From positions 1 through 24,103 of the IMG/VR virus record IMGVR_UViG_3300046000_001602: 24,103 nucleotides of DNA; one strand, written 5' to 3'. Shown here piece by piece: positions 8,330 through 24,103 of this stretch (position 1 is the stretch's first letter; each line of letters begins with the position of its first letter). Under the pieces are notes generated by a model, which ran no database searches, had not been told where the DNA came from, and saw nothing but the letters and a program-made list of their open reading frames with translations. Both the position numbers and the translations under genes were made by a program. Source of the stretch: a virus.

Positions 8330-8356
8330 CCCCCGCCCAGCGCGGGGGTCTTTTTT
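8330..8356 (+). terminator. Intrinsic terminator of the plus-strand block
   Basis: A perfect seven-pair GC stem (CCCCCGC 8330-8336, GCGGGGG 8342-8348) with a five-base loop is followed by TCTTTTTT (8349-8356). It ends the plus-strand transcript where it meets the opposed virion block. The T-tract overlaps the stop codon of the minus-strand giant gene (8355-8357). On the minus strand the hairpin has no T-tract behind it, so it looks one-directional. Confidence 0.9.
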
Positions 8357-11300
8357 ACTCTCTGCCGTATTCCAACATTGGGGAAACCCGTGGGCGTAGT
8401 TTCTTCTGAATCTGCGCACCGAACACTTCGGCTTCCATTTGGTTCTGCCCCCGACGCTTGAAAGAGTCGATTACATCTTTTGGTTCAACTGCGTACTCTG
8501 GGTACTTTTGATTAAACTTTTGGATGTTTTCAATGGTGTCTGCATAAGCATCGGTATTGCCGCGCTCCATCCACAGTCTATTCATTAGGGTATTACGCTT
8601 GTCAATTACCTTTTGCTCGTAGGTCTTAGCCTCAATGGCTGCTTTCTGTTTTTGAGCAAGGCGCTCAGGCTGCAGTCCAATTGATTGCATTGCAAGTTCC
8701 CAAGCCGAAAAGTTATCTACTAGCGTAATTCCAGATCTAGTTTTAGCCCCCTCATCAGCCATGCGATAGGCAGCAGCAGGTTTAGACACAATTGCCGGAG
8801 CGGCTTTCTCAAAGGCACGTTGGTACTGCCCTTGCTCCATTAATTCGATAGCCTCGGCCCAATTTACCCCTAACCCAACTACAGGGCCAGCATTGGCAAT
8901 CACACTCTCCACCACATTCTCTCGGGTATCGGTAGAGAACCGAGGGTCGCGCAACCATAAATTTACGGGGTCAAGGCTGACACGCTCACTCAGTGAGCCA
9001 CCAGTTGCAACTGAAGCCGGGCCACGGACAACTGCCTCCATAGTTCCACGGCCAGCCTTACGGGCAGTGTCTTCACCCATGCCCATCTTCTTGTATATGT
9101 CGGCTACATAACCACCAAGTTCGACTTCCATGTAGTTCTTAAACCAGTTATCCCAGTCAAAGAACTCATCGTCGTCATCGTTTGCCATCATCTTGACCAG
9201 CGTGCCAATACCCAAAGTAAAGAACGGCAATGCCTCTGCGCCCCCAAGAAGGAACGTCATGCCTAAGATGCCAGCCAATCGACGGCGTCCCTCTTTATAA
9301 GTCTCACGGCGCTGGGCATCGGCCTCGGCTATACGCTGCTCAATAACATCCGGCGCAATCTTATCTTTCTCCAATTGCCTACGAAACTCTTCAATCTCAC
9401 CCTTGCGAAATGGCGCAGCAAATGTGTAATAGAAGTTACGCCCTATAATGTACGTAGCCAATACCGAGTACTGCTTAAACTTAGTCAGCACCGACAACAA
9501 CGGTGGGGTAAAGTACCGTGGCTTCATCTGACGAGTAAAATCGCCTAGGGACAGACCAGCAATATCTTTGGCTTCTGTAATCGCTAATTCAAAGGCTTCA
9601 TCAGGTGTATTGGCTATTGGATTGCCTTGAGCATCACGCTGTATAACACCACGCAAGTCTTTCTTAGGTTCTTTTAAAAACTTCTCATGTGCCAACTCAA
9701 AGGTTGACAGCAGCGTTACTTCTCGATTTAGCCGCTCAGACTGGTGGAAAAGGGCTGCAATTACCCGCTTAACAGTATTGTACCGACCAGTATAAAGTTC
9801 TGATGGGCGCCCCCCAATATCCATAATGTCATTGGTCTGCGAGATATTAATGTCGTTGTCTTCAATAAATCGGTCTGCGGCACGCTGAAGAAGAGGGTCA
9901 AGTTTGCCACCCTCTACAATTGATGGGAACTCCATCTGCATAATTTCACCCTTTAGCGCCGGAGATATTGTGCGCTTGGGTAGCGTAGCCGTATAACGAC
10001 CAAGATTCTTTAGCATTATTGCGTTGGCTTTAGCGTATCCGTACCGACCACCGATATAAGGCATTGTGATCGCTGCCATACCCAAAAGGTTTAGCATGGC
10101 CGAAAATGGCGAAGACAACATAAAGTAGAAGGTAGCATCAGAGGCTTTACCGGCTACAACCGCAGCCATGCTGGTGTCCTCGTTGCTCAGGATTGTCGGC
10201 GTGCGCTTCTCAACTTCCTTAATGTAATCATCATAGACGTCTGAGTTTGGTAGTTCTTTGATGTAATCTTTGGCGTTAATTAAGTTGTTTACAAACTTCT
10301 CAGCAAATTTAAACCGAGACTGCTGGTATGCGGTATGGACTGCCGTAGTAGCAAAAACACGGATCATATCCTCGCTGGCACCCTGAATTGACTGCCGGTT
10401 GATAAACATCTTCCGAACACTCTGCTGGGGAAGCAAGATATAAATTAGTTGGTCAAGGCTTTCTTTAAGTTCTTTCTTGACGTCGGCAACGTTATTAGAC
10501 GTAACCTTATCCACAAGGTCTTGGGCGTCCTTAAGAACCTGAGTTGAACTAACGTTTTGGTTGTACAACTCTGAGATGCCGTTACCCTTGCGCATGGTCT
10601 CGGCCAAGTCTCGCTGTTGTGCATTACCTTTTTCTAATTGGTTCTTCCGTTTTAAGAAAGCCATTTCACGGCCAAGCGCCGTTTCAAACTCATAGAACTC
10701 TTTGAAGTTGCCCTTGCCGACTTGGAACCAATAGTTACCAAAACGACGTAGGGGGAAGTAAGGTGCGACTAATTTATCACGACCAAACTTATCATTGATT
10801 TCTTTAATAACCTTTTGTCGCTCGGCTTTGGGCAGTTGCAACGCACGCTTCTTCATCTCCGAAATCATTGTATTAATGGAGTCGGCGTAGAAATCACGAA
10901 CTTTGCGGTAAACTTCTTTGAACTCAGGCCTCAAACCATCCCAAGCGGCTTGCATTTCTGGGTTTAGTGTCCCTGCTTTTGCAGTGTCTGGATCAACCCC
11001 ACGGATAGTTGCCTCTAACATAACGCGACCAGTAAGCCGAGACTGCCCCGGATAGCGTGCTTGCAAGCGAGTCCATTCGGCCAAGATGTCTTTAGCCTTG
11101 GTCATTGTGCGGTTCCGATCAGCAATCATCTGCTCAATAATTCGGATAGCGCCGCTAATCTGAGGGAACTTAGTTTTAGTTAAGTCATCAATTTGGCGTA
11201 AGTTAGCAAAGCCGAGAATAGACCGACGGAATATAGTATTGCCTGCACCCCACATTGCTTTGGAAATACGGGGTAGCATCTGACTCCACTGTTCGTGCCC

Positions 11301-14300
11301 TTTAATAGCATTTTGGATTTCGTCGGTAAGTTTGACGCCAACCTGCTCTGCGGTACGCCAACTCTTTGTGGATACGGGGCCACGGATTCTTTTACCTTTT
11401 GGGGCAAATCGAGCACCTGCTGCTGTAGGAGTACGGGTGCGCACTGCCGAGAACAACTGTGTGGCCGTAGCCATAGCGTTACTAGCGAGGTTATCTATGC
11501 CGACCATCTGGTAAATTGCACGGACTAGGCGTGTAAAGAACGGCATCTTAGCCGGTTTGTACATCATCTTTCTAAGTCGGTCTTGGAATGACTTATTAGT
11601 AAAGACCTCAGATACAAACTCGTGGATATCAGTTAGACCATACAAGTCCAGCGGGATATTAGCGACTGCATACTCATACATCTTTTGGAGTTCTTCACGA
11701 GCAGCACGCTGCCCTTCCGTAAGCGTATTGGGGTCGGCGTTAAGGATAGCCTCAGTAGCCGCGTGCAGTACTTCGTGTAAGAAGACGTCGTTTGTAGAGT
11801 TATCAAGGTCTATCGTAATAGCATCAAATGCCGGGTAATAAGCACCGGCAACCTCCAACCCACGGATGTTGTCTTCAAAGGCTTTGTTAACATCGGTAAA
11901 TTCTGCAATTACCGGCTGCATGTTATAGCGAGGAGAGCGTAGTTCTTTTATACCTCTATAGACTTTTTCAAGGTTTTCATCCCGGTCATAGTTTTCAAAA
12001 TATTTGCTATACAAATCCGGGTAGGTAAGCTGAACGTAATTAAACATTCGCTTCTGTTGATGATGTGTTTTTAAGTCAATCTGGCGACGGGTTAAGTCTC
12101 GAGCGCTATTGAAGCTAATCGTAGTTGGTAGGTCTAACGCTGCTAGTTTTGCGGCTAGTTCTTTGTATAGCGGATTAGTAAGCCGAGTTGAGAGTACCTC
12201 AAGAGCGCGCTTTAAATTGCCTTTGGCTATCTCATCGGCAACTGCAGGGGCAATATTTCGGGGCTTAGCAAGTCGATTTATTACTTGGTCTTCGATGCTT
12301 CCCGGCGTAGTTTGCCCAGAAAATCTGGCACGCTCGCGCTCTTCTGCAAGATCTGCAAGGCTGCGTTCAGTTCCTTCAGATACTCCGGGTTCGCCTTCTG
12401 TTGTTCCCCCAAGTCCCTCCATGCGCTCAGCACGGAGTTCATCTCTCCTTTCGTAGGAGCCAGAGTCTTGGAAGCGCTTTCCACGAGGTTTAGCGTTTGC
12501 ATTTGTATTTACCTCTCGAATAAATTCAAAAATATCTTTGTTATTACGATATGTTTTAAACAACCGCTGACGAATATCGTTTAATGTGGTATCCCCTACA
12601 AGAGATTCACCTTCCATCCGATACAGAATCCGTTGCATTTCAGCAGGGAAGTCGGCGTTGTGACTGCGAACTTTATGGTGTGCTAACTCATGCACCATCG
12701 TACCCAAGATACCTGCTGCAGCAAACCGTGGTTCAATTGACTCAGTTACAGCCGGGTTTACATACGAACCACTAAAAGGCAATCGTATGCTTACACCTCG
12801 ATAATTTGTGTCAAAACTTACGCCGATAGCCTCATTGCGAAGGTCATCGTACCCCATGAGGTCGGCAACATAAGACCTAAGTTTCTGGAACTCATCACCA
12901 ATTTCGTATATGAACTTGTCAAAACGTTGGTCAAATTTGTCTCGGGCCATCTGCACCAGAGATTGACCCCTAACATTTGCTATCTTACGTTCAAGTTCGG
13001 CTTTTTTAGATCCCCATTCAGCATCGGTAAGTTTATCGTCATACCAATCAGACCTAACGTCTTCCAATTCTTTTTTGAGTTTCTTAATTTCTTCTTGATC
13101 TGGGATTTCTACGTTGTCATGCAACATGACACGTTTAGCATCAACGTTGGCTTGGTCAATCTTAAATTCGTCAAGGTTAATTCTAGAATTCTTAAGGTCA
13201 TCTTGGGACAGTTCAGGGATAACCCGACCTTTAACAATTAAGCGGCCTTCTTTAACCTCAATGACATCGCCTTCAGAGATGTCAGAAGCAACTTTTACAA
13301 TTCCAGCATCGCCTTTAGGAGCAAGTTCTTCCGGTGCAGTTGCTTTAATAGTTCCTCTGTCGTCGTACAAATACTGTATTGACCCAAAGTTTTTAGCGTC
13401 ATTCCCTAAATCGACAGCTCCATAAACTAAGTTCAAATAACTAGTTAACTGTTCAAACCCTTTTTCCGTCGTTGGCGAAAACCGTTGCCGATTTAAGTCA
13501 AACGGATAATTAAAATCTTCTGGTTTTACATTTTTGTTAGGAGATACGTCAAGATAAAAATTTCTAGGTACTGTTTTAGAATCAAAGCCCGCACCTACTG
13601 CAATCCTTCCGTCAAACTGCCACAATCCATTAGATAGTATGTGTAAGTTATCGCTAGGTACATACCGTTGAGGGCTTTTTTCAACATAAATTCTTGCAGT
13701 GCCCCAATCAAACTTAACATCAGCAAATTGGGTATAGCTATCATATGGAAATTCATTACCTATGCGAACAGTACTATCGTTGAATGTAACAGAAATATCC
13801 GCAAACAACGGACTTTTTATTAAAACTTCATAATCAAATTGGCTATCAGGGATTTTAATTTGCTTAGTCTCCCCTGTATCTGAATCTATATAAGACTCAG
13901 GTACGCCTACTTCAGCATAAGTACCATGCCCATCTGGGAAAAGTTCAAGATATTGAAGAGGAATGTCATTACCTTTATACACCCGAATGTCTGGCTGCAT
14001 GGATGGATCGTCCATTGCATCTTCTAGTTCAACCCCAGTGCTTTCTAAAACACTTAGCACATCATCGCGCATAGTGACAACTTTTATGCGTTTGTTACCA
14101 AACAAAAATTGCATTTTGGCAATACCAAGACCACCAGAAGCTCGGGTGCTTTCTTTTTCCGTCCCTGCAACAGTTAGAAATGTAGTTGACAAAGTCTTAG
14201 GAGACATGCCAGTTCCATTATCTAATACTGAAATGATACGAGTAGCTGGATCTACATTTATATTAATAGCGCCTTCTTTAAGCTGCCCTTTTTCCTGCAG

Positions 14301-16613
14301 TGTTTTGATGGCATCAAATGAATTTTGAACCATTTCTTTAACCGACACAGTCGGCATTTTGTCAGGATTACCATACAACTTTTGCCCAAAAAGTTTATTC
14401 ATGCGGCGTTTGTTGTAGTCTGGTTTAGCCTTAATAGTTTCCCCAGACGGGCGCAGGTCAGCGGGCTTTGAAGTAGCCGCTAGTTCATCAAGTAGGGCTT
14501 CGCCTTCAGGCGACAATGAGTTATTTGATAGGGCTAGACCAGAATCTCTGAGTGCCTTTAAGGCTTGAAACTTAACCGCACCGACCTTGCCAGCACGAAG
14601 TTTGGTAGCCGCATCTAAAAACTGTGCGTCATTCATCCCTCTTGGCAACGCAGATGGCACGACTTCCGGTACAGTTTTACCCCTAAGCCCAGCCCGAATC
14701 TCATCTTCAATCTGCTTAATTTTGCCAGCACGCTGTTTCATCGGTAGAGCATTGATCTCGGCTTGACGAGCGGCTACACCTTTATTTACAACTAACTGCT
14801 CATTTAGTTGGTTAACCCGTGCTTGTACAGTGGGGTCTTCAACAGCGGCTAAAGCATCCGCAATAATCTTGTCTACCGAGTCGATCTCCCCTTGAACTTG
14901 CTTTAGGGCCGAATCTACCTTGGCTTGAGAACCTCGTTTGTTACCCGCAGTTAGGTCTTTAGATGCATTTACAAGGCGGGCTGCTGAACCGGTAGCAGAT
15001 GGATAATTAAGCAACGCACCTAGAGGGGCTGGTAATTGAACCCCTAACCCCATCATGTCTTCACCAGACGGAATGTTTAGTTGTGTAGCGACATCGGCGT
15101 AGGCATCTTTTGCCTTTTGTATTGACGCATCAAGAGAGTTTAATGACTGCGTTACCGGGTTTGCCAAGTCTGTCATTAAGGCGTTGTAGTGGATGTTTGT
15201 CTGTTTTTGTTGCGGGCTTACTGTGTCGCTTGGTTGAAACAGGGTTTCTAATGCACTTGGCTTAGCCGTTGCTCCAACTCCAACCCCACCAGCAGGAACC
15301 CCAGAAACTTCCACTCCTCCGGCTCCAGTTCCAGTAGGCTGCTCGGTAACTCCTGCTCCGACACCTGTTTCGTCAGGTACCTGAAGGCTAGGCTCAATTC
15401 TTCCGGCGGCATCCGCTGTAGCAACTCCTCCTGCCAGTTCTCGTTCTCCATAAGCCTTCACCAATTGGTCGAGTTCTTCATTAGTGGCATCACGCCCGTA
15501 CATCTGTTTAAAACCGGTAGCAAATGCTGCTTTTATTTCGGGAGTGACGGCTTCAGGTTCCGCAGATTCTTCAAGCTTTGCGTCTAACCCGGCAATAAGT
15601 CGTTCTTCGGGGGTTTGTAGCCCAGCAAATTTTTCCGCACCCTTTTGCATGGCTTTACCAACGATGACATTACCGCCAGTGCCAACAACAGTTGCAATAA
15701 AAGTTTGCGCTGCAGCAGAAGGGCGGTCTGCTAAATAACTAGAGAACGGTTTTTCAGGGTTTAATACAGCCCAATCGTTTAAGTCTTGCAGTATGGTTGC
15801 AAGTTGCTCTCCGGGTATTTCTTTCTTTAACTGATTAAGCAGCATCCGACCAAAGCCGGTCTTTTGGTTAATGTCGTTAAGCAAACTGCCAAGAGGCATT
15901 TTTTCAGTAGCAACCTCAATAACACCTTGAGATACGGCAAAGGGTAATGCTTGCTCAGGTCTTAGACCTTTTTCTCTAGCCTCTTGATATGCTTGACCAC
16001 CAGTAAGTCCACCAAAAGTACTAAGCACGGCAGCCTGACCGCCCGGGAGCATTGCGGCAGGCAATAAGGCTAGATTTTGCCCAAGACTTTCGAGGCCGGA
16101 TTCAACACCACTAAGTATTAGTCCTTGGTCGGCAGGAGGTTTTATCTTCCTAGCCTCTGATTCACGGGCCTGCTTTGCCATAAATTCAGCGGTTAGAGCA
16201 GCAGGATCTTTTTCTCCAATAGTGCCAGTAAGCGCTTGATATAACCTACCCTGTGGAGTCTTTTGGTATACATCACTTGCTTGTTCAGATAATGCACGGA
16301 ACGCCCCAGCCGCCCCAATGTTCATGCTTTCAGGGACATTTTTAACCACACGCCCTAAAAAGTCAGTGATTGAGTTTTCTGATGTAGCGGGGGGAGGCGC
16401 AACTTCTTCAGGAGTAGCCGGGGCTACTGGTGCTTCTTCTACCTTTGGCGCAGGCGCAGTCGGCGCAGCGGGGGCAACACCCAACCCGATACGGCCTGCA
16501 AAATCCTCAAACGGTAAATCAGAGTAAAACTTTTTGTGGAATCCAGTTGCTAAGTCTTGGTCTGATAAATCATTGTATTGAGGGTATTGTTTGCGAAGTT
16601 CTTGAATATTCAT
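8355..16613 (-). CDS. Giant multidomain virion/ejection-type protein: GHKL ATPase plus two metalloprotease-like motifs (2752 aa)
   Basis: The product is about 300 kDa. Residues 1-45 form a motif seen at the start of other phage proteins (ELRKQYPQYNDLSDQDLA). A Pro/Ala linker (48-78), a Gly-rich hydrophobic stretch (181-206) and a Gly/Val linker (about 395-460) follow. A GHKL/Bergerat ATPase comes next: N-box EMVQNSFDA (Glu760, Asn764, Asp767), G1 DNGTGM (798-803) and G2 GGLGIAKM (from 827). Then come HELAHH (1308-1313) and HEVLHA (1613-1618), the latter with IHEFVSE (Glu1665, Glu1669) as a gluzincin-like third ligand. The remaining thousand residues are helical with hydrophobic segments near 2170 and 2450 and an acidic DDDDEFFDWDNW patch. 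It fits the phage 'polyvalent protein' class, likely packaged and injected; that role is inference. The start overlaps the previous stop (TAATG). Confidence 0.85.
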   Translation of the reverse strand: MNIQELRKQYPQYNDLSDQDLATGFHKKFYSDLPFEDFAGRIGLGVAPAAPTAPAPKVEEAPVAPATPEEVAPPPATSENSITDFLGRVVKNVPESMNIGAAGAFRALSEQASDVYQKTPQGRLYQALTGTIGEKDPAALTAEFMAKQARESEARKIKPPADQGLILSGVESGLESLGQNLALLPAAMLPGGQAAVLSTFGGLTGGQAYQEAREKGLRPEQALPFAVSQGVIEVATEKMPLGSLLNDINQKTGFGRMLLNQLKKEIPGEQLATILQDLNDWAVLNPEKPFSSYLADRPSAAAQTFIATVVGTGGNVIVGKAMQKGAEKFAGLQTPEERLIAGLDAKLEESAEPEAVTPEIKAAFATGFKQMYGRDATNEELDQLVKAYGERELAGGVATADAAGRIEPSLQVPDETGVGAGVTEQPTGTGAGGVEVSGVPAGGVGVGATAKPSALETLFQPSDTVSPQQKQTNIHYNALMTDLANPVTQSLNSLDASIQKAKDAYADVATQLNIPSGEDMMGLGVQLPAPLGALLNYPSATGSAARLVNASKDLTAGNKRGSQAKVDSALKQVQGEIDSVDKIIADALAAVEDPTVQARVNQLNEQLVVNKGVAARQAEINALPMKQRAGKIKQIEDEIRAGLRGKTVPEVVPSALPRGMNDAQFLDAATKLRAGKVGAVKFQALKALRDSGLALSNNSLSPEGEALLDELAATSKPADLRPSGETIKAKPDYNKRRMNKLFGQKLYGNPDKMPTVSVKEMVQNSFDAIKTLQEKGQLKEGAININVDPATRIISVLDNGTGMSPKTLSTTFLTVAGTEKESTRASGGLGIAKMQFLFGNKRIKVVTMRDDVLSVLESTGVELEDAMDDPSMQPDIRVYKGNDIPLQYLELFPDGHGTYAEVGVPESYIDSDTGETKQIKIPDSQFDYEVLIKSPLFADISVTFNDSTVRIGNEFPYDSYTQFADVKFDWGTARIYVEKSPQRYVPSDNLHILSNGLWQFDGRIAVGAGFDSKTVPRNFYLDVSPNKNVKPEDFNYPFDLNRQRFSPTTEKGFEQLTSYLNLVYGAVDLGNDAKNFGSIQYLYDDRGTIKATAPEELAPKGDAGIVKVASDISEGDVIEVKEGRLIVKGRVIPELSQDDLKNSRINLDEFKIDQANVDAKRVMLHDNVEIPDQEEIKKLKKELEDVRSDWYDDKLTDAEWGSKKAELERKIANVRGQSLVQMARDKFDQRFDKFIYEIGDEFQKLRSYVADLMGYDDLRNEAIGVSFDTNYRGVSIRLPFSGSYVNPAVTESIEPRFAAAGILGTMVHELAHHKVRSHNADFPAEMQRILYRMEGESLVGDTTLNDIRQRLFKTYRNNKDIFEFIREVNTNANAKPRGKRFQDSGSYERRDELRAERMEGLGGTTEGEPGVSEGTERSLADLAEERERARFSGQTTPGSIEDQVINRLAKPRNIAPAVADEIAKGNLKRALEVLSTRLTNPLYKELAAKLAALDLPTTISFNSARDLTRRQIDLKTHHQQKRMFNYVQLTYPDLYSKYFENYDRDENLEKVYRGIKELRSPRYNMQPVIAEFTDVNKAFEDNIRGLEVAGAYYPAFDAITIDLDNSTNDVFLHEVLHAATEAILNADPNTLTEGQRAAREELQKMYEYAVANIPLDLYGLTDIHEFVSEVFTNKSFQDRLRKMMYKPAKMPFFTRLVRAIYQMVGIDNLASNAMATATQLFSAVRTRTPTAAGARFAPKGKRIRGPVSTKSWRTAEQVGVKLTDEIQNAIKGHEQWSQMLPRISKAMWGAGNTIFRRSILGFANLRQIDDLTKTKFPQISGAIRIIEQMIADRNRTMTKAKDILAEWTRLQARYPGQSRLTGRVMLEATIRGVDPDTAKAGTLNPEMQAAWDGLRPEFKEVYRKVRDFYADSINTMISEMKKRALQLPKAERQKVIKEINDKFGRDKLVAPYFPLRRFGNYWFQVGKGNFKEFYEFETALGREMAFLKRKNQLEKGNAQQRDLAETMRKGNGISELYNQNVSSTQVLKDAQDLVDKVTSNNVADVKKELKESLDQLIYILLPQQSVRKMFINRQSIQGASEDMIRVFATTAVHTAYQQSRFKFAEKFVNNLINAKDYIKELPNSDVYDDYIKEVEKRTPTILSNEDTSMAAVVAGKASDATFYFMLSSPFSAMLNLLGMAAITMPYIGGRYGYAKANAIMLKNLGRYTATLPKRTISPALKGEIMQMEFPSIVEGGKLDPLLQRAADRFIEDNDINISQTNDIMDIGGRPSELYTGRYNTVKRVIAALFHQSERLNREVTLLSTFELAHEKFLKEPKKDLRGVIQRDAQGNPIANTPDEAFELAITEAKDIAGLSLGDFTRQMKPRYFTPPLLSVLTKFKQYSVLATYIIGRNFYYTFAAPFRKGEIEEFRRQLEKDKIAPDVIEQRIAEADAQRRETYKEGRRRLAGILGMTFLLGGAEALPFFTLGIGTLVKMMANDDDDEFFDWDNWFKNYMEVELGGYVADIYKKMGMGEDTARKAGRGTMEAVVRGPASVATGGSLSERVSLDPVNLWLRDPRFSTDTRENVVESVIANAGPVVGLGVNWAEAIELMEQGQYQRAFEKAAPAIVSKPAAAYRMADEGAKTRSGITLVDNFSAWELAMQSIGLQPERLAQKQKAAIEAKTYEQKVIDKRNTLMNRLWMERGNTDAYADTIENIQKFNQKYPEYAVEPKDVIDSFKRRGQNQMEAEVFGAQIQKKLRPRVSPMLEYGRE

Positions 16614-18004
16614 TAACGAATGCCAAGGGGGTCATTAACATTTGGAGCGCCCATTCTACCACTGCTAAGATCTACGCCTTGAACTTGATACAGTTTAAAT
16701 ATGTCTTGCTGTATCTTATCTTTAATTGCTTTAACCCTTGTTTGCGCAGCAACATCACCAGCAGCGGCTTTTTTCATATCTTCTTGAAGTTTAGGATCAA
16801 ATGTAGCCCGTTGCATAAACTCAGCATTGGCATCTTTTGCCGCCGACGACACCGCAGTTCGAGTAGCATTGTAAGTATCTTTTGGAGCGAGTGCCTGTGC
16901 AGCTTGAGAAACTGAGTCTAAATACGACAAGCCGGGATTAGCCTTGCGTAATTGTGCTGCTGCTTGAAGGGTTTTATCAGGGATATTAGCAATTGCTAGG
17001 CGGTTTTCCCTATCCAAACGAGCAGTCTCTTCACGGGACTCAGTCTCACGCTCGCTTGCATACGTTCTTTCAGCCGACGAAAGCGCAGCAAGTTTCTCCC
17101 TGCGTGCAGCTTCATCAAGTTGCAATTGAAGTTGCATATCAGCCAGTGTCTGTTTACGGCGTTCCCTAACATCTTCAGCAAAACCCTTAACTGCGGCTTG
17201 AGAGCCTTTGCCAATATTAGTTAGAGCATCAGGAGACTCACCACCAAGAATGCCTAGACCTGCCTCTAGCGCACGAGTCCAAGCATCTGTCCGTACATCG
17301 GTATTTTTACGGGCTTGATCGTCAAGAAACTTTTGAATTGCATCAACTTTGGCAGATTGTGGTGCTTCTCTTTCCCTAATTGCTCTTGTTTCGGCGTAGA
17401 TATCTTCAAGCGTTCTTCCTCTACGCGGGGATCTTTGAGTAGACATAGTAGTGCCTAAGCCAAGTCCTGATCCAAATCCCGGTGTCTGAGAGTCTATATC
17501 TTGCTGGACTGCATTAGAGAACATAGACGCAAACGAGGGCGCAGATTCAGTGCTATATAAATTTTTGGAACGGTCACGCTCTAAGCTCATTAGAGTATCT
17601 ACATCATTTAAATCTCCACCTTCTTGAAATGCTACGATGCCACCACCTGCGTACTCGTTGCTGTACATTTCTTCAGGCACGGGTAATGAGGCAACCCCTG
17701 CGTCCATAGGCATCTGTTGTTGCGGTGCCATAGCCATCATCTGTGGCTGCGCTTGTGGCGCTTCGGCTTGGGCATTAATTGCCATATTTCTTTCAGTTAC
17801 CGAGGCTGGCATAGGTTTAGCCATCGCCTGCATATTGGCAGCAGCTTGTGCCATTTCGGCTTTTTCATTTAGGATAATTGGTAGCATGTCAGCCGGTATA
17901 CGACCTTGCTGTGCCATAGCCATAAGTTGCTGCTGTGGCAACTGTGCTAACGTGTTGATCGGCCCTTCCTGAAGTTTAAGGGCTTGAGTTATTCCCATTG
18001 CCAT
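16613..18004 (-). CDS. Probable internal virion/structural protein with GGGIVAF motif (463 aa)
   Basis: The N-terminal third is rich in Gln, Met, Ala and Pro (QQQLMAMAQQG, QAQPQMMAMAPQQQMPM) and contains a 'LPQQQLMAMAQQGRIPADML' segment of a kind found in phage structural proteins. YAGGGIVAFQEGG (118-130) is the GG-hydrophobic-GG signature that I know from many aquatic phage virion proteins; variants occur in the neighbouring 714-aa protein. Residues from about 190 on are almost purely helical and charged, with long runs predicted as coiled coil (RRKQTLADMQLQLQLDEAARR; AERTYASERETESREETARL). It lies directly before the giant gene and shares the TAATG junction with it. An internal-core or ejection role is inferred from this context; there are no enzymatic motifs. 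AGGG precedes ATG 18004. Confidence 0.75.
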   Translation of the reverse strand: MAMGITQALKLQEGPINTLAQLPQQQLMAMAQQGRIPADMLPIILNEKAEMAQAAANMQAMAKPMPASVTERNMAINAQAEAPQAQPQMMAMAPQQQMPMDAGVASLPVPEEMYSNEYAGGGIVAFQEGGDLNDVDTLMSLERDRSKNLYSTESAPSFASMFSNAVQQDIDSQTPGFGSGLGLGTTMSTQRSPRRGRTLEDIYAETRAIREREAPQSAKVDAIQKFLDDQARKNTDVRTDAWTRALEAGLGILGGESPDALTNIGKGSQAAVKGFAEDVRERRKQTLADMQLQLQLDEAARREKLAALSSAERTYASERETESREETARLDRENRLAIANIPDKTLQAAAQLRKANPGLSYLDSVSQAAQALAPKDTYNATRTAVSSAAKDANAEFMQRATFDPKLQEDMKKAAAGDVAAQTRVKAIKDKIQQDIFKLYQVQGVDLSSGRMGAPNVNDPLGIR

Positions 18005-18018
18005 TATGGTCTACCCTA

Positions 18019-18957
18019 TTATTTATTTGCTAAGTTATACAGACTTAAACCGGACAACCCAAGGCCAGCCAACTGACTTGCAAATGAGGGCGGCGGCGTG
18101 GTCGATGTGGTTGTCTGCTCGGTCATTGGAATACCACGGATAAAGCCACTAAGTTTTTCCAGTTGCTGCTCGGGGAACTGAATACCTTTAAGAACGTCTT
18201 GATACCGTGCATCAATCTGTTGCTGCTCAATGGCACGCTGTAAGTCTCCATATGCGCCAAGAGTTTTAAGTCGATCAATTTCTGCGGCTTGCTGTCCAAT
18301 ACCTAACTGCCCAAACTGTGCGCCTAGTGTACCAAGCGCTTGACCTTGTTGAATACGAGCAGCACGTTCTGTCTCCAAACCTTTTTGTGCAGCTTCATAT
18401 GCAGACTGTAGACCTCTGGCTTGAATATCACCTAAACCTTGTGCCAGTGCTTTTTCTCTTTCGGTAGTAGCCAATAACTGTCGTGCCCCACCATAAGTTC
18501 CTTGACGGGCCGCACCAAGATTTTGAGCTAGTTGGGCTTTTTGAGCATCCTCAATTGCCTTTGTCTTTTGAACGTCAATGACATTCTGAGCATAAGGGGA
18601 CATGTATTGTTGCATTAGCCCCTGATCTAACAGACTAGGTAAACCACCACCAAGATTTGAATATGCAGAACCTAAAGCCCCCGTGCCCATTTGAAACTGA
18701 GAGGGAGTCTGCATCTGCCCAAGTTGCGTACCAATCTGTTGTTGATATGGAGAAAGTCCAGCAACTCTACCGGCACCGTATACGCCCGCAGCTTGAAGAG
18801 GGTCTACGTATTGGGCTTTAAAATCTTGCGGTGTACCTTTGCCGTACAGGTTAAATGCTTGTGGGATTAAACCCTTAGAACCCTCAGCACCTTCTTTATA
18901 GTATGTTTCAAAGGCGGCTGGTAGTGACGAGGTTACGACTTGTGATGTAGTTGCCAT
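18019..18957 (-). CDS. Gln/Ala-rich helical internal virion-like protein (312 aa)
   Basis: The protein has an N-terminal part with 'YVDPLQAAGVYGAGRVAGLSPYQ' and a central, strongly patterned helical region: 'MSPYAQNVIDVQKTKA', 'ARQGTYGGARQLLATTERE', 'DIQARGLQSAYEAAQ', 'LGTLGAQFGQLGIGQQAAEIDRLK'. It then has 'QQQIDARYQDVLKGIQFPEQQLEKL', which ends in a hydrophobic tail. I recognise this pattern from uncultured phage proteins encoded in the tail/ejection cluster, where it is often left unnamed. The alternating Ala/Gln/Gly helices suit a protein that must unfold to pass through a tail, as T7 gp14-16 do; this is inference. AAAGGAT sits eight bases before ATG 18957. It lies between two other structural genes with 10- and 14-base gaps. 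Confidence 0.75.
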   Translation of the reverse strand: MATTSQVVTSSLPAAFETYYKEGAEGSKGLIPQAFNLYGKGTPQDFKAQYVDPLQAAGVYGAGRVAGLSPYQQQIGTQLGQMQTPSQFQMGTGALGSAYSNLGGGLPSLLDQGLMQQYMSPYAQNVIDVQKTKAIEDAQKAQLAQNLGAARQGTYGGARQLLATTEREKALAQGLGDIQARGLQSAYEAAQKGLETERAARIQQGQALGTLGAQFGQLGIGQQAAEIDRLKTLGAYGDLQRAIEQQQIDARYQDVLKGIQFPEQQLEKLSGFIRGIPMTEQTTTSTTPPPSFASQLAGLGLSGLSLYNLANK

Positions 18958-18967
18958 AATCTATCCT

Positions 18968-21112
18968 TTAAGCAGGCATCATTCTGCGAGTATTAACTTG
19001 AGGAGCCTGACGGGTTTTGCCTGTGCGTGATCTGCGAACCCGATCCATCATTGAATACAATCTTTTAGCCCCGGCATTAGACGAACCATTACCAAGGTGT
19101 GATACCACGTCAGCGGGAATTACGAACTCACCGTCAGCCAAACGGGCTTCTTGTTTGCCCCCAATATTAGCCCTAATAGAGTCGCTCATTCCATCTCCAC
19201 CACCACGAAGATACCGAGGAGGTAAGCCACCTTTGGCTAGAGCAGCAATACCACCCTGCATCATATTGTCATCACCACCGATTTCGTCGTCGTAAGAGTC
19301 GATCCGTCCACCACCAGCCATACCAAACCCAGAGACTTCTTGGCCTGTTATACGACGGTATTGAACTGGATAGTCTGCCAATATTTTACGGGCGTATGCT
19401 TTTTCTTCTTCGTTTTTATTATTAACATCTTGCAAAATTTTGTCGGCTTCTGCCTTGGCTTTCTCAAGTTCATCTAGGGTTTTCATGCCTGCTACCCCAG
19501 TGAAAGCCGCACTTGCCGCAGTACCAACGCCAATTGGCTTGTCTGTAAAGGGGTTAATAGCTTGTCCAGAAGTAAATGCCGCACGAGCACCGGGGGCACC
19601 GGTTACTGTGTCATATAACCCAGTAGCAGCCGTTTTGATATTTTGTCCTGTCTGATTGACGTAGTCCATAAATCCAGAGCCTTCAGGCATTGCCTCAGCA
19701 AACTTAGATGCTGCAGTGGCGGCTGCGTCAGTAGGTGGTAACACATCTCCAGTAACTGCATCCATCATGGTTCCGGGAGCAAAATCAGGCCCAGCAGGTA
19801 CAGCGTTAATACTTATTGCTGAGTCAGCAGCCTGTTGAGCACCAATATCTCCAATATTAGCCCCTGCGTTTGCGTTAGCAGCCGCACCAGCACCCTGTGC
19901 AAGTGACCCAATTCCATAAGTAGTTAGGCCAGACATTAGACCTCGCTTCAGGTCAAACCCTTTTTTGCCGCTAAGACCACCCACAGCCGTGCTCAATAAA
20001 GCCTTGGTAATAAGTGGCGATAGCCCAGCAAGACCGGGGATTGGAATAAATGGGAGGATTGGAGCAACAAACTTGGCAATCTTTTTAAACATCTTTTTGA
20101 GACTGAACGCCTCTGGCATACCTGTATAAGGGTTAACACTTAGTGAAGTGCCATTAGCCATCGCTAGTCGCTGGAGTCCTTGGACTTCTTGAGGCGACAT
20201 ATGCACCATCATAGAATCACCATAGCGACCTTTAGAGGCCATGTTGTTTGCCAAACTAGGCAAACCACCTTGTGCGTAGTTCATAACCCGACCCCCATAC
20301 CTAAATGCATCGCCAGCGCCGCCAGAGGCACTAGAATCGGCCCCACCAGTAGAACCATCGCCACCACCATCTCCACCAGAGCTACCACCACCATCTCCAA
20401 CTCCAGCGCCAGAATCTCCACCGGCACCACCTGAACCATCAGTTGCGCTATTAGAACCTACGCCACCCGAATCCGTGCCCATACCCATAGCGTCGGCTAT
20501 TCCACCAATTCCAGCATCCATAGCACCGGTCTCAGAGGCATTAGCGGCTGCTGCTGCGGCTGCGGAAACGGCTGCATTATTGGCGGCGTCTTCTTGTTCC
20601 TGAGCCTGTATAGCGGCTATTTGGGCTTCTATAGATGTCACCGGGGCTATGGGGCTAACTTCCTGTACGGCTGGTGGGGCTACAGGACTTACTTGAGCTT
20701 GGTTAGCAATTGCCTGCGAAATCTGGGCTTCCCGAGACTCAACCGGGGCTATTGGACTAACTTGCTGCACCGCAGGAGGGGCTACAGGACTAACCTCTGG
20801 TGCCTCTATTTGCTCCGCTTGCTCCTGCATTGCTTTTTGTTGTTGGTAAGCATTAACTACGGTATTTACCAGCCCAAGAATACCCAAAGGTTGAGAAAGT
20901 GCTGGAACAGCCAGACCAACCATGTTTGCTATACTTGGCCCAACTCGCCCCAATCCCGGAACATCAACACCAACTACTGGGCTAAAAAGTTGATCCATAA
21001 CCCCACCACCAGACTGAAAGTGCTTAGTGGGCAGGGAAGCCAAACCACCGCTAGCCATCATTGGCATGGGAGGGCCGTAGGCATATTGGGGGGTAGCGGG
21101 GGCTGAGTACAT
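18968..21112 (-). CDS. Large Gly/Ala-rich structural protein with internal repeats (714 aa)
   Basis: Several copies of a GG-hydrophobic motif are visible: 'MASGGLASLP' with 'HFQSGGGV' (19-38), 'YGGRVMNYAQGGLPSL', 'GMAGGGRID' and 'MQGGIAALAKGGLP'. Residues 107-170 contain a 34-residue repeat (VSPVAPPAVQ(Q/E)VSPIAPV twice). Residues about 200-270 are almost only Gly, Ser, Asp and Ala. A hydrophobic stretch (FVAPILPFIPIPGLAGLSPLI) follows. The C-terminal domain, 'MSDSIRANIGGKQEARLADG' then 'EFVIPADVVSHLGNG' and 'AKRLYSMMDRVRRSRTG', is a conserved ending that I know from many marine phage virion proteins. It is probably a tail or internal virion component that may insert in membranes. The exact role is unknown. 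AGGAT precedes ATG 21112. Confidence 0.8.
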   Translation of the reverse strand: MYSAPATPQYAYGPPMPMMASGGLASLPTKHFQSGGGVMDQLFSPVVGVDVPGLGRVGPSIANMVGLAVPALSQPLGILGLVNTVVNAYQQQKAMQEQAEQIEAPEVSPVAPPAVQQVSPIAPVESREAQISQAIANQAQVSPVAPPAVQEVSPIAPVTSIEAQIAAIQAQEQEDAANNAAVSAAAAAAANASETGAMDAGIGGIADAMGMGTDSGGVGSNSATDGSGGAGGDSGAGVGDGGGSSGGDGGGDGSTGGADSSASGGAGDAFRYGGRVMNYAQGGLPSLANNMASKGRYGDSMMVHMSPQEVQGLQRLAMANGTSLSVNPYTGMPEAFSLKKMFKKIAKFVAPILPFIPIPGLAGLSPLITKALLSTAVGGLSGKKGFDLKRGLMSGLTTYGIGSLAQGAGAAANANAGANIGDIGAQQAADSAISINAVPAGPDFAPGTMMDAVTGDVLPPTDAAATAASKFAEAMPEGSGFMDYVNQTGQNIKTAATGLYDTVTGAPGARAAFTSGQAINPFTDKPIGVGTAASAAFTGVAGMKTLDELEKAKAEADKILQDVNNKNEEEKAYARKILADYPVQYRRITGQEVSGFGMAGGGRIDSYDDEIGGDDNMMQGGIAALAKGGLPPRYLRGGGDGMSDSIRANIGGKQEARLADGEFVIPADVVSHLGNGSSNAGAKRLYSMMDRVRRSRTGKTRQAPQVNTRRMMPA
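20639..20794 (-). repeat. 102-bp-period tandem repeat inside the 714-aa protein gene
   Basis: Two imperfect copies (20741-20794 and 20639-20692) encode VSPVAPPAVQQVSPIAPV and VSPVAPPAVQEVSPIAPV, offset by exactly 102 bases (34 codons). Each copy also contains an 11-residue half repeat (VSP.AP). The residues between and behind the copies are also related (EAQI.QAI/EAQIAAI), so the unit is probably the whole 34 residues. Confidence 0.85.
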
Positions 21113-21143
21113 AATTAGATTATCCTAGATTTGTCAAGTGATG

Positions 21144-22556
21144 TCACTGGGTTAAGTCATAGAAGGAAATAGAGCCGACCCCGTCCCCTTTGGTTGCGCC
21201 AGAAATGGTTCTAACGCCAAGTGTGTAGATGTCACTGACACCCGTCAAGGACACGCCAAGTTGCTCATCCCAGTTAAATCCGGTAGGCGCAATAGTATTA
21301 GTCTGCCCGCCACCGCCGGAGTTTGCAACATAGGCTGTTTGGACGATTGTTCCAACAGTTGCAATAGCCGTAGCCGAAACATCAAACTCAACGTTGGCAT
21401 CAGAAGGAACGGCTGACCAACTGGCCCCCGTAAGGACTGGGTTTTTAATTAATGCAATCTCGTAGTTTTGCAGGGTTGTCGGCTGAAACTGTATGCGGTT
21501 TGGAAGTACCACTGCTCCCAGCGCTGTCGAAGCCAATCGAATTGACACAATAGGGTAGAAGTTTGCCGCTGTATCAATATTGGTGAAGATGCTGGTGCGC
21601 CGTGCAACGTGCTCAATTGATGTAGCCTCAAATCCACCTTCGGATATTACCGACGAGCAAATCTGCGTAAGCGTAGCGGCAACTGCTGCCGTTGTGGTAG
21701 TGATCTCGTAGCGGATAGGCAGTATGGCAGTGGTCATGTAGACCGTCGTGCCGTAGACGTTGGCGGTGTTAAATGTATGGCAAAGAACGTATTGCCCGTT
21801 AATAATGAAGCCGCACCGGACTGAACCGACCCCAAGCCACTCAAAGTCCATCCACAAGATCTGTGGGTGGGTCAGGTCAAGCGTGTATCCAGAGGTGCCA
21901 GTACCGTCTAGTTTGTCGCCATTCCAGTCGGCTTGGTTAACAAACCGTGCATCACTTGGCGTGCCAGAAGTGTTTGAACGCAATACGAGCGCATTAACCC
22001 CGCCGGTACGACGGAAGAACAGCCCGTTCTGGGTATTAAAGTACCCAACACTTTGATTAAGGTTGGCAGAAGTGCCGTTGTCCATCTGAAAGGTTGCTAG
22101 AACCAACAGGCTTTTCCCCGGCTGATACAGCATATTGCGGAATGACTGACGTACCACAGACCCAACGCCACCACCCGTCACAGCCAGACTAACGCTGGAC
22201 TGATTGGTATTAAATGTCGATGTCCCAGTACCAGATGTAGAAGTGCTAAATTGATTGTCAGCAGCGTAACGGCTTTGGCTGTCAAATAGGCTGTAGGGTT
22301 CGCTCACACGCAAACGCCCAAAAGCATCTACGTTGGTGCCGCCTATTGAAATTGGTAATGGGGTCATATTTCCCTCGCAAGCCGTTCCATTTAGTATGCC
22401 TGCTACGGCATTTTGAAAGTTGTCAATCTGGTTGAAGTACAGCCGCAAAATCCTAATAAGGTCTGTCGCATACTTTTGGTCGTACTCAACAGGCGGCACC
22501 GGTAGGGCAGGTGCAACGAAGGTCTTTTGAATATCATTATCAACACAGATGGTCAT
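21144..22556 (-). CDS. Fibre-like, beta-rich phage structural protein (470 aa)
   Basis: The N-terminus includes 'YDQKYATDLIRILRLYFNQIDN' (about 25-46), a helix of the kind that anchors phage fibres or decoration proteins. It is followed by the conserved 'AFGRLRVSEPYSLFDSQ' (78-94), a signature that I know from tail-fibre/structural proteins of diverse phages. The rest is Thr-, Ser-, Gly- and Asn-rich with alternating hydrophobics, as in a beta-sandwich or beta-helix (e.g. SVSLAVTGGGVGSVVRQSF). A C-terminal 'NWDEQLGVSLTGVSDIYTLG' ends the fold. There is no lyase or sialidase motif that I can see. It is probably a virion surface or tail-fibre protein for host recognition. ATG 22556 overlaps the stop of the hub-like gene (ATGA). 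Confidence 0.75.
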   Translation of the reverse strand: MTICVDNDIQKTFVAPALPVPPVEYDQKYATDLIRILRLYFNQIDNFQNAVAGILNGTACEGNMTPLPISIGGTNVDAFGRLRVSEPYSLFDSQSRYAADNQFSTSTSGTGTSTFNTNQSSVSLAVTGGGVGSVVRQSFRNMLYQPGKSLLVLATFQMDNGTSANLNQSVGYFNTQNGLFFRRTGGVNALVLRSNTSGTPSDARFVNQADWNGDKLDGTGTSGYTLDLTHPQILWMDFEWLGVGSVRCGFIINGQYVLCHTFNTANVYGTTVYMTTAILPIRYEITTTTAAVAATLTQICSSVISEGGFEATSIEHVARRTSIFTNIDTAANFYPIVSIRLASTALGAVVLPNRIQFQPTTLQNYEIALIKNPVLTGASWSAVPSDANVEFDVSATAIATVGTIVQTAYVANSGGGGQTNTIAPTGFNWDEQLGVSLTGVSDIYTLGVRTISGATKGDGVGSISFYDLTQ

Positions 22557-24103
22557 CGCTTACCGTCCGGTCTACCATCAAGCCTTGGCGTACCTAACTG
22601 CCACTGTACATTTAAGTCTTCGGATTGAATCTTGAACCCCATCTGACGGGCACGGGCGCGGATAAATACCTGATCGGTGTACTGCTCAATCGGCACCGTG
22701 GTGGATCGGGTAACTGATGGGTTATTAGTCGTGTTGTAGTTTGAACCCGGGAAGTTCCGTGGCTTCATGGTCATATACACGAGAGGGCTTGTTGCTGTGG
22801 AGCCTTCAAAATTAACGTCAGGGATAATCCTTTTAATCAGTAACAAGTTTTCGCCGTCACCAATATCAAAGTCGTTGGTCTGTATGTAGGAGGTCATGGC
22901 AGAAGAATCGTCGTTCGTGCCCTGCTCATGGTTAAATACATAGTTCCCACCAACCGCCTGCGGATACTGACGCAAAGGTGTGTCAAGCCAAGCCGTGCGA
23001 GAAATAGAGCCGTAATACCAGACACGCTCCATGTAGTTATAGATCACGTAACTGTCGTTTACACCGGAGTTCTGGCTTGGGTAGAACCACCAAATCTCAT
23101 GCCAGCCTTCGTTCGTGCCGCAGACAACCTGAGCCGCTTGGTTGTAGTTAAAGTTATTAAATACGTGGTTGCGCAGCGTGCAAGGTAGCGTCTCAACTCG
23201 GCCTGAGTAGGCATAAAACTTATCTGTACCCATCCAGTAGGTTACGTTGTTAGCCGAAATACAAGACCGTGGAGACATGATTGAGGTGTTATCAGCCAAC
23301 TCCTGCAACGAAAACACATCTGTTGTACCTGTAAATTGGAACGAATACAGGTGCGAGTCAGTAAATACTAATGTCTCCTGCCGGGTAGGTAGCGCCCTGA
23401 TAATCCTTGATCCGCGAGATACTCGGATAAAACCTGCGGAATTTGTCGCGGCTGGCGCCCAGTTAACAGGATCATCCTGATTAGCCCACCTAATAAGAAG
23501 GGGGTCAAAATCACCAGCGCTACTAGAACCGTAAGGCACGCAGCCAAAAGCGAGTAGATGCTTATCGTTTTGTGATACAAGAATTTGCATGGCTTGGACG
23601 GGGACACTGGCGGCTCCTGATAAAGAAGAAAGAAGAACTGCACGAGTATTAAATACCCCCGTGTACTCCCAGATATAGATCGGGCCATTGCGGATATTGG
23701 CGATCAGGTCATTATCAAAGTTATCCATGAACCAATCACGCTGCTGGTCTACAACCGGAGTAAGTGACCCCTCACCCCATGTCAGCCGACCCCAAGCACC
23801 GGCGCCCCAGCCGTAACCGTAAGCGACATACGGGTTGCCAATATTAATCTGAAAAACCGCCGTGATGGCTGTACCGCCGCCGTTAGTTGTCGTGCTAGTA
23901 GCCGCACTAGTCGTTTGGATAGTAAAGTTATCTAAATCCACTACGGTTTGAATTTGAAACTCTGCATTAAATTGCACCTGCGGGATACCACCTATTGGGC
24001 CAACGACGCCAGAAAAGGTAACGTAGGAGCCAGCCGTAGCGCCGTGGTTGACAATATTGACGTTTACCGTCCTTGACAAGTTAGTGGTATCAAAGCAGTT
24101 CTC
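22553..24103 (-). CDS. Tail hub/nozzle-like structural protein (partial, N-terminus beyond right edge)
   Basis: The frame is open to the window edge. The residues ENCFDTTNLSRTVNVNIVNH run straight through the TTG at 24077-24079, so that TTG is probably not the start and the gene begins outside. The first part is a small beta domain (VNIVNHGATAGSYVTFSGVVG, then FNAEFQIQTVVDLDNFTIQT). A Gly/Trp patch (YGYGWGAGAWGRLTWGEG) and a long beta-propeller-like body follow, with repeated features such as 'DFDPLLIRWANQDDPVNW', 'ETLVFTDSHLYSFQF', 'NNVTYWMGTDKFYAYSGRV', 'VWYYGSISRTAWLD' and 'WQLGTPRLDGRPDGKR'. I recognise the family from uncultured podovirus-like genomes, where it lies with tail genes. Assignment to the tail nozzle (T7 gp12-like) or P22 gp10-like hub is tentative. 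Confidence 0.75.
   Translation of the reverse strand, partial: ENCFDTTNLSRTVNVNIVNHGATAGSYVTFSGVVGPIGGIPQVQFNAEFQIQTVVDLDNFTIQTTSAATSTTTNGGGTAITAVFQINIGNPYVAYGYGWGAGAWGRLTWGEGSLTPVVDQQRDWFMDNFDNDLIANIRNGPIYIWEYTGVFNTRAVLLSSLSGAASVPVQAMQILVSQNDKHLLAFGCVPYGSSSAGDFDPLLIRWANQDDPVNWAPAATNSAGFIRVSRGSRIIRALPTRQETLVFTDSHLYSFQFTGTTDVFSLQELADNTSIMSPRSCISANNVTYWMGTDKFYAYSGRVETLPCTLRNHVFNNFNYNQAAQVVCGTNEGWHEIWWFYPSQNSGVNDSYVIYNYMERVWYYGSISRTAWLDTPLRQYPQAVGGNYVFNHEQGTNDDSSAMTSYIQTNDFDIGDGENLLLIKRIIPDVNFEGSTATSPLVYMTMKPRNFPGSNYNTTNNPSVTRSTTVPIEQYTDQVFIRARARQMGFKIQSEDLNVQWQLGTPRLDGRPDGKR

Follow-up and report, generated by a model that had tools for sequence, protein, structure and literature searches.

A GG-hydrophobic motif in two putative phage ejection proteins and its link to a tape-measure-type module

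The complete record IMGVR_UViG_3300046000_001602, a viral DNA of 24,103 bases (the window), encodes two proteins, P1 (463 amino acids (aa), minus strand, 16613-18004) and P3 (714 aa, minus strand, 18968-21112), that share a short motif of two glycines and a hydrophobic residue (the GG motif). Among the groups of proteins counted, enrichment of this motif is confined to the P3 and P1 families. In P1 the motif is a conserved short linear motif within a predicted-disordered linker, of the leader type and without a hook core. In P3 it stands ahead of two conserved modules, the second of which is, as judged through its relatives, homologous to the hook module of siphophage tape-measure proteins (TMPs). 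We would classify the GG motif as the leader of a tape-measure module for which we found no family name; a second ejection-block protein has a bare copy of it. The reading we favour, with a probability of about one half, is that both are ejection proteins, that P3 carries a TMP-type anchor, and that the GG strand is a docking motif which P1 uses alone.

To our knowledge, the retention of such ejection proteins within the virion is poorly understood. Both P3 and P1 evolve rapidly, and disorder is predicted for most of their length. A strongly selected motif inside a linker of this kind, common to the TMP anchor region, provides a short target for studying how ejection proteins are retained and released. 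Long-tailed phages and the window virus may share a similar mode of docking for the proteins of their tail channels.

Distribution of the motif and its conservation in P1

The motif strings quoted in the preliminary description of the window are all present in P1 and P3. Counted with the pattern [YFMH]x(1-2)GG[GA]?[VILMFRY], which was devised after the first set of loci had been viewed, P3 of the window has seven matches compared with 0.98 in shuffled sequences, and none of 1000 shuffles reached seven. P1 has a single match against 0.10 in shuffles (P 0.093), which is not significant by itself. With an earlier, looser pattern, GG[GAS]?[LIVMF], the P3 protein of the window was not significant in shuffles (P 0.06). 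Composition alone was rejected as the cause of the motif, on the evidence of the shuffles in the case of P3 and of conservation in the case of P1.

The first set consisted of relatives fetched via P3 (the best 80 of 124 loci) and via P1 (5 loci). Among its non-redundant sequences the P3 family had 128 matches, compared with 39.5 in shuffles, and 48 of 53 sequences were positive; the P1 family had 57 matches against 8.5, with 30 of 34 sequences positive. There was no excess in the family of P2, a 312-aa protein encoded in the same block (4 matches against 15.9; 4/30 sequences positive). The family of the giant 2752-aa protein of the block had 16 matches against 19.2 (12/31 positive), and all other open reading frames (ORFs) together had 76 against 60.5 (50/171 positive). 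Since the pattern had been written after these loci were seen, fresh contigs were sampled solely through the stabilization protein (relatives of P0005; the best 80 of 291 and the best 80 of 599), with no selection on the motif. This sample is made up of related phages, and the P2 gene is present in 44 of its 160 loci. At the P3 position, defined as the ORF preceding P2, 76 matches were counted against 24.1 in shuffles, and 26 of 37 ORFs were positive; the 11 ORFs lacking a match are small ORFs of 138-154 aa in P3's place. The P1 position gave 42 matches against 10.4 (24/32 ORFs positive), and P2 was at chance level (14 against 14.5; 9/37 positive). Locus L191, which is the same contig as L001, was left out of these motif counts and retained in the module count (27/38).

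The P1 motif occupies residues 118-130 (YAGGGIVAFQEGG; 17615-17653, minus strand). In the P1 alignment the GG pair is kept in 32 of 34 sequences, being absent from L064 and L077, and 28 of the 33 aligned relatives are merely 16-31% identical to P1 of the window. Twelve columns are invariant or nearly invariant, and these include G121, G122 and G129. A lack of positional conservation between homologues, which would have refuted the preliminary description, was not observed: the place is conserved in P1, and in many relatives the motif lies ahead of the conserved P3 modules.

Codon constraint was measured in P1 from seven close relatives in 7-codon windows (n=379). The segment GGGIVAF shows 0.041 non-synonymous (N) and 0.490 synonymous (S) changes per codon pair, and a fraction of 0.008 of the windows is equally constrained. 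The companion motif GVASLPV (residues 103-109; 17678-17698, minus strand) shows 0.000 N and 0.544 S (fraction 0.005), and for YAGGGIV, which overlaps GGGIVAF, the fraction is 0.016. When the five closest P1 sequences were used alone, the corresponding values were 0.9% for GGGIVAF, 0.4% for GVASLPV and 5.6% for YAGGGIV. The combination of high synonymous and low non-synonymous change at the P1 motif indicates selection that looks peptide-level and not DNA-level; a DNA-level repeat or recombination site is disfavoured as an explanation on the same grounds. Together, the enrichment in the P1 and P3 families alone among the groups counted, the conserved place in P1, the position ahead of the P3 modules and the constrained P1 windows support the earlier suggestion of a signal common to proteins of this cluster.

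In the AlphaFold2 model the P1 motif lies within a coil of low confidence that covers residues 82-134 (predicted confidence (pLDDT) <50) and has helical regions on either side. A fold search of the P1 model against BFVD returned nothing at 0.001, no PHROG matched P1 at E 0.1, and no Pfam model matched P1 or P3 at E 1.

The modules of P3 and their relation to tape-measure proteins

P3 contains two conserved modules, each with GG motifs ahead of it (all P3 features lie on the minus strand). Module A (residues 295-336, GRYGDSMMVHMSPQEV...NPYTGMPEAF; 20105-20230) has many invariant or nearly invariant columns across 47 relatives and the family consensus GDSMMVHMxPxEV...NPxTGxPEAF. It is preceded at residues 272-287 by YGGRVMNYAQGGLPSL (20252-20299), which contains matches to the motif pattern; near relatives retain GGRV alone at this site. 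Module B (residues 635-697, LRGGGDGMSDSI...ADGEFVIPADVV...GAKRLYSMMDRVR; 19022-19210) is the tape-measure hook-like core, with the C-terminal family consensus DSI...GEFV...G.G...GA..L, and its GG leader at residues 619-631 (QGGIAALAKGGLP; 19220-19258) stands ahead of it. A further copy, AGGGRID, is found at residues 599-605 (19298-19318), where near relatives have AMGGRI. In the fresh contigs, FAMGGIANL, FAEGGIATL and similar strings precede module A, many contigs have strings of the FAxGG[IL] or MAxGGI type ahead of both modules, and module B has the sequence GPGTGTSDSIPAMLSDGEFVFTAKAV. Some fresh contigs, for example L224 and L244, have no GG string before module B.

At the N-terminus a pair of GG motifs (residues 19-41, MASGGLASLP at 19-28 and FQSGGGVMDQ, with FQSGGG from 32; 20990-21058) lies at the edge of a segment that is unaligned in near relatives. 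This segment (residues 20-269; 20306-21055) comprises about 250 aa, includes a stretch very rich in Gly, Ser and Asp, and has GG motifs at both bounds.

The link between module B and TMPs was obtained from its relatives. When a profile built from 23 sequences of module B was searched against the sequences in the PDB, it matched the TMP of phage Douge (whole-sequence E 2.5e-8, from two stretches each weak singly). The sole other match, a designed repeat protein at E 0.029, was rejected. Searched against PHROGs at a threshold of 0.01, the same 23 sequences matched 12 PHROGs, 8 of which are tape-measure families, and full-length bridging proteins match tape-measure PHROGs with E down to 2.7e-8. 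The 77-aa module of relative L193 matched 691 phage records, and 36 of the 40 matches listed, spread evenly down the ranking, are annotated as tape-measure genes. The module of the window scores weakly itself, and the tape-measure link therefore runs via relatives. The same is true of the individual hallmarks of a hook module, since the GEFV core, the upstream DSI and the conserved downstream glycines are recognized through relatives and are weak in the window sequence alone. Whole P3 matched only two PHROGs, at E 0.098 and 0.099.

The GG leader upstream of the core is present in the window and is frequent elsewhere. In two partly overlapping sets of modules (at least 6 of the 79 loci of one set overlap the other), the core has a GG string upstream of it in 43 of 55 distinct modules (17.0 in shuffles) and in 15 of 19 (4.7 in shuffles). 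Two of the locus lists used covered the best 80 of 545 and the best 80 of 252 loci. The pattern behind these counts is looser and post hoc, and the first set of loci falls outside the count, its core being unmatched by the pattern. Searches of the module against Pfam and NCBIfam gave no convincing match (best E 0.017, to apparently unrelated families), and six core peptide strings were not found in the open-access papers searched. A literature search on tape-measure homology in podophage proteins returned no paper containing all four of its terms.

Among the closest known counterparts is the TMP of phage JBD30. It matches the module profile at residues 1020-1056, with FASGG ahead of the match, and this stretch overlaps the hook at residues 1022-1066, for which a pair of helices and a short hairpin are predicted in PMC11445458. 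Drawing on T5, the JBD30 authors speculate that the hook anchors the cleaved TMP within the baseplate. The same protein (L106:4599-8075) has a second GG beyond the hook, PVRHATGGQIG at residue 1084, which has an Arg before it, somewhat like T5; cleavage there might be considered instead of the site at 1066 that has been guessed in print. The Douge TMP carries two modules, at 964-1004 and 1412-1452; the part assigned in PMC13033339 is residues 1658-1699, so both modules fall outside it. In lambda gpH, GG motifs at 736 and 781 lie on either side of a GEFV core, and the profile score is marginal. Neither HK97 gp16 nor T5 pb2 matched the module profile in any meaningful way.

Module B of P3 thus resembles JBD30 gp46 (1022-1066), Douge gp16 and lambda gpH (about 733-785) in having a DS[IM]-type start, a GEFV-type core (NDEFM in JBD30) and a GG leader upstream. 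Unlike siphophage hook modules, the window core holds extra residues between its DSI and GEFV parts and, unlike siphophage TMPs, P3 is a 714-aa ejection-block protein and not the ruler of a long tail. The AlphaFold2 model of P3 is mostly of low confidence (mean pLDDT 52.8), and the motifs of both P3 and P1 fall mostly in coil with pLDDT <50. For module B the model predicts helices at 667-671 and 679-697 (pLDDT about 55-77), and the hairpin predicted for JBD30 is not seen. A fold search of P3 against BFVD gave nothing usable; the top match was an uncharacterized phage protein (E 8.7e-6), with TM-scores of at most 0.10. At or near the C-terminus, the proteins encoded at L103:12069-13988 and L094:8103-8684 have an apparent tandem pair of GEFV-type modules.

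Candidate roles of the motif

Docking, membrane insertion and processing had been named beforehand as candidate roles. Because the P3 module is homologous to the hook of TMPs, docking is the best supported of the three, although it is still an inference. On this docking reading, P3 and P1 would be held inside the particle, most of each chain being disordered. A GG-hydrophobic strand would form on binding and would dock both proteins on the lumen of the tail hub or nozzle, the GEFV module giving P3 a second grip. Such an anchor could retain P1 and P3 in the channel before DNA ejection, or keep their register during it. Upon opening, the proteins would be set free or threaded through, while the anchor would hold the delivered channel in register.

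Several results weigh against this interpretation. The window's own module matches tape-measure PHROGs only at E 0.1, and none at 0.01. Codon constraint is weaker in P3 than in P1: the fraction of equally constrained windows is 0.027 for AKGGLPP, 0.064 for QGGIAAL and an unexceptional 0.317 for AGGGRID (the fractions for LRGGGDG and DGEFVIP are 1.1% and 14.4%). In JBD30-like modules an upstream GG is not significant (8/11 compared with 5.7 in shuffles), and a stricter pattern yields only 4 of 12 against 1.8 for these modules and 13 of 53 against 6.1 for the other set. The anchor region of T5 pb2 has neither a module-profile match nor a GEFV-type core. Two records that carry the module have Myoviridae and Siphoviridae in their titles, which are not podophages. 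Across 19 neighbourhoods from isolates, phages scored as module-bearing have 8 motif matches in their other ejection-block genes compared with 8.5 expected, and those of phages scored as lacking the module have 27 against 18.7, by a pattern that scored MinM2 as lacking the module it has. Given the absence of a motif excess in the isolates scored as module-bearing, the idea that the P1 motif accompanies the hook in diverse phages is unsupported. Finally, we found neither a solved structure of the GG leader nor a binding datum for the motif.

A broader version of the docking reading is more tentative, and we hold it to be rather doubtful. It proposes that any protein waiting in a phage tail channel, or passing through one, may be addressed by the GG-hydrophobic strand as a general tag, that siphophage TMPs and podophage ejection proteins are anchored in the hub by the same element, that such ejection proteins are functional and partly evolutionary equivalents of TMPs, and that P1 acquired the bare tag.

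Phage T5 provides the main argument for a processing signal, in which a protease cuts at or just before GG and the motif is part of its recognition site. In PMC10038345, cleavage of the T5 TMP after R1127 was mapped by mass spectrometry, and the 43 C-terminal residues of the processed protein are modelled in a crevice between hub subunits after opening. In the sequence of T5 pb2 (L105:8122-11781) this cut falls in VPR|AEGGMMYPG, two residues ahead of a GG-hydrophobic motif. T5 pb2 is comparable with the window proteins in having a GG, which in T5 is next to the processing site; the C-terminal segment of the processed T5 protein is placed in the opened hub.

Lambda gpH, with its GG motifs flanking the GEFV core, likewise undergoes C-terminal processing. 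In the fresh P1 sample 13 of 24 motif-bearing sequences have R or K within three residues before GG, so processing may apply to those sequences. Among the 32 aligned P1 sequences with the GG, including that of the window, none has such a residue, and the multiple GG copies of P3 would have it cut into fragments. The processing role proposed earlier thus keeps the suggestive T5 site and loses the constancy of a basic residue before GG; we consider it unlikely. Double-glycine leaders are also a feature of C39-processed peptides. Unlike those, in which a single GG ends a short N-terminal leader, P1 has its GG at 118 and the seven matches of P3 run from 19 to 629.

The motif could instead be a capsid or portal packaging tag that, as the procapsid is assembled, recruits P1 and P3 to it and has no role in the tail. 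An address tag of this kind fits a short conserved motif in the otherwise variable linkers of two cargo-like proteins. The GG leader, however, also precedes the hook core in TMPs, which occupy the tail and not the head, and P2 would need packaging too but shows no motif excess. We regard a packaging tag as improbable.

We give a similarly low probability to a purely structural linker, in which Gly-rich flexible joints at domain boundaries are kept by composition and module shuffling, with no binding partner. The location of the motifs at module edges and in predicted coil agrees with such joints, as does the extra segment of about 250 aa in P3 with GG motifs at its bounds. Against it, the surroundings of GG in P1 rank with the most constrained parts of the protein, and yet an N/S of 4.3 was obtained for the linker immediately after the motif, in a region of uncertain alignment. 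The frequent synonymous change counts against a DNA-level repeat, and the enrichment exceeds composition-matched shuffles. Membrane insertion, with the motif as a hydrophobic anchor entering the host membrane during ejection, is highly improbable and found no support: TMPs have been proposed to form envelope channels, but the motif is short, with few hydrophobic residues and commonly polar neighbours, and most copies are predicted as coil.

The gene block and additional observations

The genes of the block are transcribed from the minus strand in the order P0005, P0004, P3, P2, P1 and the 2752-aa polyvalent protein. P0004 and P0005 (21144-24079) match virion structural proteins (phrog_1645, E 2e-97, for P0004; phrog_3287, E 3.4e-48, for P0005), and several relatives are annotated as stabilization protein. 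P2 (18019-18957) matches the DNA ejection protein phrog_4287 at E 1.5e-16; as its gene lies between those of P3 and P1, these two are not adjacent, contrary to the preliminary description. The giant protein (8355-16613), encoded by the final gene of the block, has LPD39 and HATPase_c_3 matches.

Internal virion proteins of P22, T7 and LUZ24-like phages are podophage ejection proteins. The order in the window, stabilization protein, P3, DNA ejection protein phrog_4287, P1 and giant protein, resembles that of podophage ejection blocks, and P3 is encoded in this block beside the DNA ejection protein gene. We infer that 8355-24079 is the ejection block of a podophage-type virus, the type being suggested by the block and by distant relatives. 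The neighbourhoods of several of those relatives contain tail tubular protein genes; in the scoring, these relatives counted as having no GEFV module. The blocks of phiM5, Pa223 and Ss1, unlike that of the window, were likewise scored as lacking it, by a pattern that can miss the module. For the phiM5 block, the annotation describes the products of three genes as internal virion proteins that had been detected in particles. P1 and P3 are probably sent through the tail into bacteria. Their earlier designation as virion proteins stands as a reading of gene order and relatives, and for the window phage itself it goes no further.

Several features of the block and its relatives may be recorded separately. 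In the pelagiphage-like contigs L116, L139, L144, L160, L184 and L189 a small ORF of 138-154 aa separates P3 and P2. The CRP901 (L091) gene at a comparable spot is annotated as a GNAT acetyltransferase; it is set beside these ORFs by position alone. In the 2752-aa protein, a match to a GHKL-type ATPase and LPD39 occur together with two HExxH-type strings, MVHELAHH and FLHEVLHA, that resemble metallopeptidase motifs. The product of L103:13992-15230, in the place of an ejection protein, has a cysteine-rich tail with CCC runs and two GG motifs, and is recorded as a coronavirus S2 glycoprotein, which is probably a misannotation.

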